Assembly (NCBI GenBank): GCA_903923905.1
Contig: CAIXZH010000050.1
Coordinates: forward strand, 1-64,000
Source of the DNA: an uncultured Bacteroidia bacterium
GTDB lineage: Bacteria > Bacteroidota > Bacteroidia > Bacteroidales > Prolixibacteraceae
Direction: 5' to 3'
DNA: 64,000 nucleotides
The notes under the pieces: generated by a model
Told to the model about the DNA's origin: nothing
Database searches by the model: none
The model's input: only the letters and a program-made list of their open reading frames with translations
Part shown: in pieces, positions 56,103-61,332 of the stretch
Numbering within the stretch: position 1 is the first letter of the stretch
Layout: every line of letters starts with the position of its first letter
Position numbers and translations under genes: made by a program

Positions 56103-57116
56103 TTACTCAATAATTGTTGTCCAATTGTATGGGTCCGGTTCAAGACCATATTGAATTCCTCTAAGCTTTTCATAAAGTTGAACCGACACTTTGCCCGGTT
56201 CAGTTCCGTAGGTGTATTCTAAATTTTTGTCGGCATCAAAGACTCTTTTAATCGGAGAGATTACAGCAGCTGTACCGCAGGCTCCAACTTCATCAAATTC
56301 GGAGAGTTCTTCTACCGGAATCTGACGTTCTTCAATCTTCATCCCCATATCAGCAGCCAATTGTCGTAAACTCATATTGGTAATAGAGGGGAGAATTGAC
56401 CCTGATTTGGGAGTTACATAGGAATTTCCTTTAATCGCAAAAAAATTGGCAGGTCCACATTCATCAATATATTTCTTTTCCCTGGCATCCAGATAAAGTA
56501 CAGCTGAGAATCCCTCATGATGGGCACGCTGACCGGCAACAAGACTGGCTGCATAATTACCACCAACCTTAATTTTACCGGTTCCCAGAGGAGCTGCACG
56601 ATCGTATTCGCGATAGATTACCAGATCAGTCGGTTTAAAACCCTCTTTAAAGTAAGGACCAACAGGCATGACCAATACCAAAAAAAGATACTCATCTGCT
56701 GGATTTACACCGATTTGATGGCCTGTTCCAATGAGCAATGGACGAATATATAAAGATGCCCCGGATTCAAAAGGCGGAACAAAAGCCTCGTTTAATTTCA
56801 CAACTTTCTTTACTGCATCAGTGAATAATGGAGTTGGTACTTCAGCCATCATAATCCCTTGTGAAGAACGCTGCATTCGCTTTGCATTCTCTTCCATCCT
56901 GAAAACACGGATCTTTCCGTCTTTCCCTCTGAAAGCTTTTAATCCTTCAAAAGCCTCTTGTCCATAATGAAATGTAGTTGCCCCAATATGCAAAGTAACA
57001 TTTTCAGATTCAGACACTTCTAATTCACCCCATTTACCATTGCGATACCAGCAACGAATATTGAAATCCGCTTTGCTATACCCAAATCCAAGATTTTCCC
57101 AGTCTATTGTTTCCAT
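56103..57116 (-). CDS. ilvE: Branched-chain amino acid aminotransferase
   Basis: LHIGATTFHYGQEAFEGLKAFRGKDG, YIRPLLIGTG, KVGGNYAASL, VGACGTAAVISPIKRV. Confidence 0.96.
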   Translation of the reverse strand: METIDWENLGFGYSKADFNIRCWYRNGKWGELEVSESENVTLHIGATTFHYGQEAFEGLKAFRGKDGKIRVFRMEENAKRMQRSSQGIMMAEVPTPLFTDAVKKVVKLNEAFVPPFESGASLYIRPLLIGTGHQIGVNPADEYLFLVLVMPVGPYFKEGFKPTDLVIYREYDRAAPLGTGKIKVGGNYAASLVAGQRAHHEGFSAVLYLDAREKKYIDECGPANFFAIKGNSYVTPKSGSILPSITNMSLRQLAADMGMKIEERQIPVEELSEFDEVGACGTAAVISPIKRVFDADKNLEYTYGTEPGKVSVQLYEKLRGIQYGLEPDPYNWTTIIE

Positions 57117-57670
57117 ATCTTAATTTTATGCACTGATTCCGTCTGCTAAAGTACAATTAATCCATTAAAAGTTAGTTTTATTCAGAAAACAAAGCAATGA
57201 TATCCCTAAATTTTTATCGGTGTAACTTTGCCAAATTCTCCGACTGTGAACTTTACAAACCGACAATTCTGAAAAATTTATTAACCATTATATTAACAAA
57301 TATGATCTGCACAATAACGATGCATTGATATATTATATCATTGTATTTCAATCATTTATATATAAACATAAACCAATTTTTACAAATTTCCACATTTACT
57401 GCATTGAACTAAAAATGAATTTTCTTCGATTCAGCGTCTGGGATGAAAAATAAGTTTAAATTCTTCGTAAATTTGATAATGGATTCTAAAAATACCGATT
57501 TTAAAATAGTATTTGTAAGGTCTTGAAATAGTAATTATTGGAAATAGGTAAATTAAAATGAAAATAATCCATCCACCTGAAAGTGTAGGAATCCATGATA
57601 TCTTATCAAAAACGACACATTAGTAAATAAGAAATAAATCCTAAAATTCTTACCTTAAAACCCATTAGCA

Positions 57671-58909
57671 ATGGAAGAAAATTTGACTGAAGCATCTCCA
57701 TTAAGCATGGTTCCGGCAAGGGACCATGCAGTTCCCAATAAAAACAGGCTTTCAGTTCTCAGCTTCCCATACGATGAATCAATTCTTCAATTCATCGCAA
57801 AAAATTACCCGCATACGACAATCCATGACTGGAATAATTGGAACTGGCAGATAAAACATAGTATAGATTCTGCCGACCGGTTGAAGGAGATATTTGGGGA
57901 ATTCCATGAAAACGTGATCCGTTCATTGCCGGAAGACCATTTACCATTTCGCATAACTCCTTACTTTAGTTCATTACTAAGCCGTTTATCTCCCAATCAC
58001 CCACTTTTCAGAACCGTTGTTCCCGCCAAAGAAGAGCTAATTACAACTCCGGGAGAAATGATTGATCCTCTTTGCGAAGCAGAAATTACACCTGTACCTC
58101 ATATTGTTCATCGTTATCCTGATCGTGTATTATTTACTGTAACAGGTTTTTGTGCTGCATATTGCCGTTACTGTACACGAAGTCATATGGTGTCTCAACA
58201 AAATAAATGTCATGTTTCAATCCGAAGTTGGGATAGAGCTATAGAATACATCAGAATTAACAATTGCATCAGGGATGTCCTTATTTCAGGAGGGGATCCG
58301 CTTACCTTGTCAGACTCGGGTATCGAATATCTATTATCCCGCATAAGAGCCATTCCCCATGTTGAAATTATAAGGATAGGCACTAAGATCCCGGTTGTAT
58401 TACCGATGAGAATTACAAGGAGTTTGGTAAACATCATCAAAAAATATCATCCGGTGATGATGAGCCTTCATTTCTCACATCCGGATGAACTCAGCATTGA
58501 AGCGAGAGAAGCTTGCAACCGTCTGGCAGATGGTGGAATACCATTGGGAAGCCAAAGCGTCCTTTTGAAAGGGGTCAATGATCAGGTCGAAATCTTTAAA
58601 AAGCTTAATCATGAACTTTTAAAGGTCCGTGTCAGACCATATTACATCTACCAATGTGATCCAATTCCCGGCTCTGCCCATTTTCGGACTGAAATAAAAA
58701 AAGGGATCGATATTATTAATGGGCTTACCGGTTATACCTCGGGTTATGCTGTCCCGCATTTTGTAATTGACGCTCCTGGAGGAGGGGGGAAAATTCCAAT
58801 ATTGCCATACGCTATTAAAAGCACTAATAAAGAAGGTGTTACACTTATTAATTACGAAGGAAAAGAGTACATCTATCCTGAAAAGTTTTCACATAATTTG
58901 GAAATATGA
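57671..58909 (+). CDS. kamA: KamA-type lysine 2,3-aminomutase (radical SAM/PLP)
   Basis: CAAYCRYCTR (CxxxCxxC cluster motif), VLISGGDPLTLSD, YYIYQCDPIPGSAHFRTEI, VIDAPGGGGKIP (PLP Lys segment). Confidence 0.93.
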   Translation: MEENLTEASPLSMVPARDHAVPNKNRLSVLSFPYDESILQFIAKNYPHTTIHDWNNWNWQIKHSIDSADRLKEIFGEFHENVIRSLPEDHLPFRITPYFSSLLSRLSPNHPLFRTVVPAKEELITTPGEMIDPLCEAEITPVPHIVHRYPDRVLFTVTGFCAAYCRYCTRSHMVSQQNKCHVSIRSWDRAIEYIRINNCIRDVLISGGDPLTLSDSGIEYLLSRIRAIPHVEIIRIGTKIPVVLPMRITRSLVNIIKKYHPVMMSLHFSHPDELSIEAREACNRLADGGIPLGSQSVLLKGVNDQVEIFKKLNHELLKVRVRPYYIYQCDPIPGSAHFRTEIKKGIDIINGLTGYTSGYAVPHFVIDAPGGGGKIPILPYAIKSTNKEGVTLINYEGKEYIYPEKFSHNLEI

Positions 58910-59910
58910 TAAAAGTCGGCCTGACTTTCGACCTAAAGGAGGATTATTTGCAATTAGGATATACCCATGATGAGGTTGCTGAATTTGATACTCCGGAGAC
59001 TATAGACGCACTTGAACAAGCCCTGAATTCATTGGGTTTCGAAGTGATCCGGATTGGGAATATTTTCAAACTGGTGAATTATCTTAATGATCAGAGTCGC
59101 TGCGATCTTATTTTCAATATTTGTGAGGGAATGTTTGGAATCGCACGTGAGGCACAAGTGCCGTGTCTTTTGGATGCCTACCGGATACCCTACGTATTCA
59201 GCGAACCCGATATCCTGAACCTGACACTCGACAAAGGATTGACCAAACTGGTTCTAAAACAAGCTGGAATACCTACTTCTGAATTCAGCATAATATCGCA
59301 TATTACTGATCTTCATAATATTAGAATGCCATTCCCACTTTTTGTAAAACCTGTTGCAGAGGGGACGAGCAAAGGAATTGATGGATTCTCATTTGTTAAC
59401 GATCAAATTCAGCTCGAAAAATCGGTAAACTACCTGTTGACAACCTATCATCAATCAGTTTTAGTGGAATCCTTTCTTCCAGGAAGGGAGTTTACCGTTG
59501 GAATCGTTGGAAGCGGCGAAAATACAAAAGCGTTAGGAACCCTGGAGATCATTTTGAATGAACATACCCCCCACCCTTTCTATTCGTTTACCATCAAGAA
59601 AGAGTGGGAAAAATATGCCAGTTATCACCTGGCAACTGACGAAGTTGCTTTAAAATGTGCTGAAATTGCTGTCGATGTTTGGAAAATAATCAAAGGGAAA
59701 GATGGGGGTCGGATTGATTTCAGATTGGATGCCCAAGGAAAACCTAATCTGATAGAAATAAACCCTTTAGCAGGTCTAAATCCAATCTGGTCCGATCTGC
59801 CGATACTTGCCAGGTTGAGTGGAATGACCTATATTCAATTGATCAGTGCCATAATGGATTCAGCTCTAAAACGAACATCTTTAAATTATAGTGAATGGCA
59901 CATGCGATAA
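58906..59910 (+). CDS. ATP-grasp ligase, D-Ala-D-Ala ligase-like (paralog 1)
   Basis: FPLFVKPVAEGTSKGIDGFSFV, VESFLPGREFTVGIVGS, RIDFRLDAQGKPNLIEINPLAGLNP; ATGA overlap with kamA. Confidence 0.9.
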   Translation: MIKVGLTFDLKEDYLQLGYTHDEVAEFDTPETIDALEQALNSLGFEVIRIGNIFKLVNYLNDQSRCDLIFNICEGMFGIAREAQVPCLLDAYRIPYVFSEPDILNLTLDKGLTKLVLKQAGIPTSEFSIISHITDLHNIRMPFPLFVKPVAEGTSKGIDGFSFVNDQIQLEKSVNYLLTTYHQSVLVESFLPGREFTVGIVGSGENTKALGTLEIILNEHTPHPFYSFTIKKEWEKYASYHLATDEVALKCAEIAVDVWKIIKGKDGGRIDFRLDAQGKPNLIEINPLAGLNPIWSDLPILARLSGMTYIQLISAIMDSALKRTSLNYSEWHMR

Positions 59911-60842
59911 TTCTTCATAATCCCGTCAGCGATACATCCAGGCAGGATGAACTGGATGTCCTTGATCAGGTGGAATTGATTTCCGAAACACTGACCAATT
60001 TGGGATACAGCTATCAATCGCTGGAATTTACATTAAATAACAGCGACCTATTAAATTTATTGAAAAATAAGCCTGTTTCAGTGGTTTTTAATCTGGTTGA
60101 AACAATCAATGATTCCGGACGGTTCAGTTTTGTAGCCGCTGCAACGCTCGAATTATTCAAGGTTTCTTTTACCGGATCGGGGGCCGAAGCGATTTTTCTG
60201 ACTACCGACAAACTAGTTTGCAAAACTATACTTATCTTTAACAACATTAAAACACCTGCCTGGGCAAGGGAATTAGCAGATGTTGACCCGGACATCATTT
60301 ACCTGATCAAACCAATTTCCGAGGACGGTTCAGTGGGAATTGATGATGCACAGCTTTTCTCAGGAAAGGAACTCAAAGAGATCCCTGAAGGTTATTTTGC
60401 GGAAGAATATATTCATGGACGTGAATTTAATATTTCAATCATTGCCGGAGAAGAATCTTTTCAGGTATTACCAGCAGCGGAAATGTGCTTCTCAAAGGAA
60501 TTCTATAATGATAAACCGCGTATTTTGGGTTATAATGCCAAGTGGGATGAACATTCTATGGAGTATCAAAACACCAAAAGAAGTTTTCAATTTAACGAGC
60601 CTGATCAAATATTATATTCTGAATTACAGGAGATTGCAGGAAAATGTTGGCGAATTTTCGGACTCCGGGGATATGCACGCGTTGATATAAGGGTTGGAGA
60701 CGATGGCTTACCTCAGGTAATTGAAATAAATGCAAATCCCTGTATAGCACCAGACAGTGGCTTTATAGCTGCTTGTCATGAGGCAGGATTAAATAATATA
60801 GAAATTATAAAAAGAATTATTCATGATACAAAACAATACTAA
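59895..60842 (+). CDS. ATP-grasp ligase, D-Ala-D-Ala ligase-like (paralog 2)
   Basis: IYLIKPISEDGSVGIDD, AEEYIHGREFNISIIAG, YARVDIRVGDDGLPQVIEINANPCIAPDSG; overlaps the previous gene by 16 nt. Confidence 0.88.
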   Translation: MAHAIILHNPVSDTSRQDELDVLDQVELISETLTNLGYSYQSLEFTLNNSDLLNLLKNKPVSVVFNLVETINDSGRFSFVAAATLELFKVSFTGSGAEAIFLTTDKLVCKTILIFNNIKTPAWARELADVDPDIIYLIKPISEDGSVGIDDAQLFSGKELKEIPEGYFAEEYIHGREFNISIIAGEESFQVLPAAEMCFSKEFYNDKPRILGYNAKWDEHSMEYQNTKRSFQFNEPDQILYSELQEIAGKCWRIFGLRGYARVDIRVGDDGLPQVIEINANPCIAPDSGFIAACHEAGLNNIEIIKRIIHDTKQY

Positions 60843-61332
60843 CCAGGAATTTAAGAATAAGGGATTTAGAAAAACAGTCGTACCTACTGATATAATGACG
60901 GTTACAGATATATTGAAATCGACCGGCTTTTTTAAACCATTTGAAATAGATGTGGCCATCGAACTTCTCCAGGATCGGATGAAAAATGGAGAGGGATGCG
61001 GTTATCAATTTTACTTCCTTGAACTCGAAGGACGAACAGTGGCCTATGCCTGTTACGGTGAAATCCCATGTACCATCAAAAATTATGACCTTTACTGGTT
61101 GGCCGTGGATAATAATTTCAGAGGAAAAGGTCTTGGCACAATGCTGCTTCAAAAAATCGAAGAGGATATCAAAAAACATTCAGGAAGAGGCATCTATATT
61201 GAAACTTCCAATAAGGAACAATATGCCCCGACAATCGCTTTTTACAAGAAAAGCAGATACAAACAAATTGCTGTTTTTAAAGATTTCTATGCCATAAACG
61301 ACAATAAGGCAGTTTTTTACAAAAAACTTTAA
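60823..61332 (+). CDS. GNAT family N-acetyltransferase
   Basis: DLYWLAVDNNFRGKGLGTMLLQKIEEDIKKHSGRGIYIETSNKEQYAPTIAFYKKSRYKQI; overlaps the ATP-grasp gene by 20 nt. Confidence 0.9.
   Translation: MIQNNTNQEFKNKGFRKTVVPTDIMTVTDILKSTGFFKPFEIDVAIELLQDRMKNGEGCGYQFYFLELEGRTVAYACYGEIPCTIKNYDLYWLAVDNNFRGKGLGTMLLQKIEEDIKKHSGRGIYIETSNKEQYAPTIAFYKKSRYKQIAVFKDFYAINDNKAVFYKKL

Follow-up and report, generated by a model that had tools for sequence, protein, structure and literature searches.

What does a bacterium make with an operon that joins a predicted lysine 2,3-aminomutase (LAM) to two ATP-grasp ligases and an N-acetyltransferase? The question is raised by a locus in an uncultured Prolixibacteraceae bacterium (Bacteroidota), where four plus-strand open reading frames (ORFs) lie at 57671–61332 of the first 64,000 nucleotides of contig CAIXZH010000050.1 (assembly GCA_903923905.1; this whole stretch is the window analysed here). 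They encode, in order, a KamA-family radical SAM/pyridoxal phosphate (PLP) aminomutase, two ATP-grasp ligases (ATPg1 and ATPg2) and a GNAT N-acetyltransferase. Consecutive ORFs overlap by 4, 16 and 20 nt, which suggests that all four are translationally coupled. The original prediction, made on this DNA alone, had given the same coordinates and overlaps and the same families, a KamA, two D-Ala-D-Ala-type ATP-grasps and a GNAT; it was correct on the former, and our Pfam and NCBIfam assignments agree with the latter. We consider it slightly better than an even bet (probability about 0.52) that the operon is dedicated to the biosynthesis of a small N-acetylated beta-lysine peptide, which perhaps serves as a compatible solute.

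The four-gene arrangement is conserved far beyond chance, because the same four genes stand together in most of the loci that could be assessed and in many phyla. A scan of GTDB genomes with an alignment of the GNAT returned at least 579 confirmed relatives, the best 80 of which were fetched with their loci and searched by tblastn; a locus was taken as testable if 6.5 kb or more of sequence lay upstream of its GNAT gene (n = 52). KamA, ATPg1, ATPg2 and GNAT are all present in 44 of these 52. The 44 complete loci span at least ten phyla, and in 19 of them a GNAT–deacetylase fusion gene is present as well. One cultured holder of the complete operon is Prolixibacter denitrificans DSM 27267 (L076). 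Among the fetched loci, the commonest orders are KamA>ATPg1>ATPg2>GNAT (31) and KamA>ATPg1>ATPg2>fusion>GNAT (17). The full set occurs in Bacteroidota, Planctomycetota, Thermodesulfobacteriota, Acidobacteriota, Aminicenantota, Latescibacterota, Fibrobacterota, Calditrichota, KSB1, Nitrospinota and CSSED10-310, several of these phyla being labels of metagenome-assembled genomes (MAGs), and Spirochaetota have rearranged sets. The conserved neighbourhood that had been anticipated is thus found in relatives and in other phyla alike.

The genes also travel together at finer scale. Among 61 relatives, ATPg2 is found at 39% identity or more in 14, and KamA at 53% or more in exactly those 14; another 11 of these genomes have a KamA at 48–51% identity and no such ATPg2. 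Within the phylum, an ATPg1 relative (E ≤ 1e-25) is present in 106 of 396 genomes. Thirteen loci outside the window's class, which from their make-up we take to be Rhodothermia/Balneolia, have genes for two ATP-grasps and a GNAT; in most of them KamA is there too, and the order is ATPg1-ATPg2-GNAT-KamA. Spread by phages or plasmids was considered and rejected: neither a viral relative of ATPg1 nor a phage relative of the GNAT was found, and the plasmid matches are distant ATP-grasps (<35% identity), mostly rhizobial.

The first gene (57671–58909, 412 aa; LAM_C and Radical_SAM domains) encodes an enzyme whose nearest solved structure is the LAM of Clostridium subterminale (2a5h, E 1.2e-115). 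It scores 340.9 bits against the KamA family model TIGR00238 (cut-off 199.2) and, like other operon members, falls below the cut-off of the AblA/LAM equivalog model TIGR03820 (447.4 versus 525.4). All 36 operon KamAs compared retain C125, C129 and C132 (CxxxCxxC), R134, D293, D330 and K337 of LAM, among which the cysteines hold the iron–sulfur cluster of LAM, D293 and D330 bind lysine and K337 is the PLP lysine. The same 36 lack the zinc-site Cys268 and have lysine in place of R202; their tails after the PLP motif are short, at 31–50 aa versus 73–97 in AblA and the fermentative enzymes. In a maximum-likelihood tree (quick method, SH-aLRT support), the 36 operon KamAs, most of them sampled via their GNAT, make up one side of a branch with a support of 99, apart both from AblB-linked AblA and from 2a5h and the enzymes of KamD-containing genomes. 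Because D293, D330 and K337 are invariant, the substrate is likely to be lysine, as had been predicted, although the family is distinct from AblA and the fermentative enzymes. In same-phylum genomes outside the window's class, an ATP-grasp gene adjoins a KamA gene as a two-gene variant (L158, L160, L161, L163, L169, L170 and L174). There D293 is replaced by Q in 7 of 7 and the PGGGGK motif is shortened, which suggests that this KamA may act on another beta-amino acid.

Both ligases carry Dala_Dala_lig_C (PF07478), ATPg1 (58906–59910, 334 aa) at 1.2e-28 and its divergent paralogue ATPg2 (59895–60842, 315 aa) at 3.9e-17. Their AlphaFold models (pLDDT 93.8 and 92.3) find DdlA/DdlB as the best PDB fold in Foldseek, DdlB ranking first for ATPg2. 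We aligned 30 ATPg1 and 28 ATPg2 sequences with DdlB of E. coli and Pseudomonas and with the genome's own D-alanine–D-alanine ligase (Ddl). Nine ATP/Mg residues (K97, K144, E180, E187, K215, R255, D257, E270 and N272) are kept in 30/30 ATPg1 and, bar a single E270 to D change, in 28/28 ATPg2, whereas the substrate residues of Ddl are replaced: Ser150 by T/S in ATPg1 (T154 in the window protein) and by A/G in ATPg2 (position 145), and Tyr216 mostly by E/K in ATPg1 and always by W in ATPg2 (W217). Both families have gained an aspartate in the acceptor-carboxylate loop (L282 to D297 in 27 of 30 ATPg1; H280 to D287 in all 28 ATPg2), a change that would fit positively charged acceptors. Neither protein reaches the cut-offs of the Ddl models NF002378 (143.1 and 93.0 bits for ATPg1 and ATPg2, versus 243) or TIGR01205 (123.7 and 74.3 versus 245.65). 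A housekeeping role as Ddl was rejected, a separate true Ddl with standard motifs being present in the same genome. Judged from these residues, both ATP-grasps look active and, in keeping with the original prediction, not like ordinary Ddl enzymes; they probably represent two new specificities, for diamino acids.

Relatives of ATPg1 occur in other contexts too. At L156, L157 and L165, they are fused to peptidase S58, a beta-aminopeptidase family, with a histone-deacetylase-family gene directly after; the fused proteins could possibly form make-and-break pairs for beta-peptides. Other fusions of ATPg1-like ATP-grasps, at L164:4599-6761 and L167:3996-5936, have an M20 peptidase and a methyltransferase as partners. 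On pTHIMO01, a conjugative plasmid of Thioflavicoccus mobilis (L231), an operon-type KamA gene is convergent with an ATP-grasp gene, adjoined by SbnA-like (2,3-diaminopropionate), ornithine cyclodeaminase-like and diaminobutyrate transaminase genes. All these contexts speak for diamino acids and beta-peptides being the substrates.

The last gene (60823–61332, 169 aa; Acetyltransf_1) encodes a GNAT nearest to PDB 2r7h (E 2.7e-36), named a putative D-alanine N-acetyltransferase; its motifs are invariant across phyla, and the enzyme fits the N-acetylation proposed for it. In the accessory gene, a GNAT domain is fused to a deacetylase whose nearest relatives are the acetylpolyamine amidohydrolases and whose zinc-site motifs are invariant in 24 members, although, unlike those enzymes, it is joined to a GNAT and placed in an operon; the window's own operon has no such gene. 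The frequent presence of an acetylpolyamine-type deacetylase suggests a small N-acetylated amine as the operon's product. The deacetylase could also be read as part of a switch, in which a polyamine-like cationic beta-lysine oligopeptide has its charge toggled by GNAT and deacetylase. Agreeing with such a switch are the two GNAT domains and deacetylase of 19 complete loci and the gene for a CorA Mg2+ transporter that lies directly downstream of the GNAT gene, at gaps of 3–9 bp, in six loci (L084, L086, L088, L097, L110 and L124). However, the deacetylase gene is missing from the operon in 25 of the 44 complete loci, among them those of the window's relatives, two ligases and no elongating synthetase give no sign of repeated polymerisation, and the Mg2+ link is limited to one lineage, all six loci being of the Aminicenantes/Acidobacteria lineage; we regard a switched oligopeptide as unlikely.

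Gene content, conservation, catalytic residues and the separation of the subfamilies are observed; for the synthesis of a short acetylated beta-lysine peptide, we infer substrates, reaction order, product and role as follows. KamA would convert L-lysine to beta-lysine by shifting its alpha-amino group to C3. The two ligases, perhaps working in succession as originally suggested, would each turn a carboxylate into an acyl phosphate and couple it to an amine, with beta-lysine as one partner, yielding a di- or tripeptide-like amide. The GNAT would acetylate a free amine and so neutralise it, the epsilon-amine being the simplest choice, and the fusion enzyme, where present, could both set and remove the acetyl group. 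That such peptides form a new class of bacterial metabolite, produced by four to five genes in at least ten phyla and reversibly deacetylated in some lineages, is a tentative proposal, at somewhat less than even odds. Parts of this logic are known from elsewhere. The N-acetylglutaminylglutamine amide (NAGGN) pathway likewise combines a GNAT with an ATP-grasp to make an acetylated dipeptide solute. That solute is described in PMC1224877. The NAGGN pathway has no aminomutase, whereas the operon has one, together with two separate ligases and no amidotransferase gene. Pyrrolysine synthesis by PylB, PylC and PylD shares with the operon the pairing of a radical SAM rearrangement of lysine with ATP-grasp ligation of the rearranged compound; ATPg2, however, matches PylC weakly (28.6 bits, cut-off 248.3), and the operon has no PylD and adds an acetyltransferase.

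KamA and GNAT are also, in kind, the two activities of the AblA/AblB pathway of methanogens and green sulfur bacteria, so the operon might simply make the osmolyte N-epsilon-acetyl-beta-lysine, with the ligases acting on an unrelated substrate. In methanogens, salt induces AblAB, and the solute cannot be made without it (Pfluger 2003, as cited in PMC3543383). Yet the GNAT reaches 23.4 bits against the AblB model TIGR03827 (cut-off 205.1), and no AblB above the cut-off was found in the window's own genome, true AblB found elsewhere in the phylum serving as a positive control. In addition, the operon KamA, short-tailed and devoid of the zinc cysteine, belongs to another clade than AblB-linked AblA, and the ligases, often accompanied by the deacetylase fusion, are in the operon as regularly as KamA itself. 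Plain osmolyte synthesis of this kind is therefore doubtful, a little more so than the switched oligopeptide, and the original view that the system goes beyond AblAB stands.

As for the role of the proposed acetylated peptide, a solute or ion-stress function is weakly favoured by ion-transport and mechanosensitive neighbours and by parallels with AblAB. Among 96 proximal neighbours, the recurrent families (raw counts) are CorA (6), histidine-kinase ATPase (5), PhoU (4) and mechanosensitive channel (3); two MscS-type neighbours stand in separate lineages, TrkA/TrkH genes in one locus and a cation ATPase gene in another. The AblAB pair, too, has been seen beside a mechanosensitive channel (PMC11201294), and in Dehalobacter a Na+/c-di-AMP tandem riboswitch controls ablA (PMC9337991). 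Several observations weigh against an acetylated beta-lysine solute. The CorA neighbours, and mainly the PhoU ones as well, belong to a single related lineage, and mechanosensitive channels are few. Control by a Na+ or c-di-AMP riboswitch, as known for some ablA genes, was rejected, since neither the window nor any of 20 further loci matched an Rfam element. Several relatives are lake MAGs, whose names we read as freshwater; the operon therefore occurs outside salty habitats too, and this presence and the missing riboswitch disfavour a purely salt-driven role. Finally, the GNAT can persist by itself: another Prolixibacteraceae genome has, at the corresponding position between its BCAT-like and DUF308 genes, the GNAT gene (L075:7001-7504) but neither KamA nor either of the ligases.

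Beta-lysine is a constituent of streptothricin and viomycin, and the cluster on the Thioflavicoccus plasmid, where KamA and ATP-grasp neighbour SbnA-like and diaminobutyrate genes, would suit a secreted peptide of beta-lysine and other diamino acids, be it an antibiotic, a signal or a siderophore-like compound. The operon is instead a compact chromosomal module with no recurrent exporter, resistance, non-ribosomal peptide synthetase or regulator gene, and it keeps one gene order across phyla, unlike antibiotic clusters, which makes a secreted product improbable.

KamA enzymes serve in lysine fermentation and, as EpmB, act on elongation factor P (EF-P), and the ATP-grasps resemble Ddl; lysine catabolism, EF-P beta-lysylation or cell-wall precursor synthesis is nonetheless very improbable here, given the separate Ddl, the lack of KamD in the window's genome and in two other operon genomes (three KamA genomes without the operon do have it) and an EpmA model that stays below its cut-off in the window's genome. 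The best EpmA match falls within a 576-aa frame that is probably lysyl-tRNA synthetase. Fermentation was rejected as an unlikely use on the missing KamD, with its positive controls, and EF-P modification on the sub-threshold EpmA; these two and plain AblAB synthesis are poor explanations because KamD is lacking, no true AblB was found and EpmA is sub-threshold. The tagging of a wall peptide with beta-lysine, which had also been envisaged, finds no support, as no wall gene recurs beside the module.

Enzymes of each kind are known, yet for the module and its product the open PMC literature yielded no description: no paper joining KamA with such ATP-grasp ligases or with beta-lysine dipeptides was found in that open library, which omits most subscription journals. 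The operon thus holds up as a candidate undescribed system, much more widespread than first suspected and often extended by the fusion gene. If its product is an acetylated beta-lysine peptide, environmental, largely uncultured bacteria would contain an unrecorded metabolite class, with enzymes that both acetylate and deacetylate a small molecule in many lineages. The operon is compact enough to be expressed whole in E. coli, so the question is directly testable.

Around the operon, a BCAT-like gene (56103–57116, minus strand) diverges from it upstream and a DUF308 gene is convergent after it. The 554-bp gap between the BCAT-like gene and KamA (57117–57670, no strand assigned), which bears out the roughly 550 bp of non-coding DNA originally noted, is presumed to be the operon's promoter region; an upstream alignment of close relatives shows no clear motif there and partly conserved A+T-rich blocks. 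The starts of KamA and ATPg2 are sound, because close relatives align from residues 2–10 and 1–6, respectively. In six Planctomycetota and deltaproteobacterial loci (L083, L085, L105, L106, L120 and L147), a gene for a small CxxCxxCC protein of the metal-chelating YkgJ type separates KamA from ATPg1 or directly precedes ATPg1.

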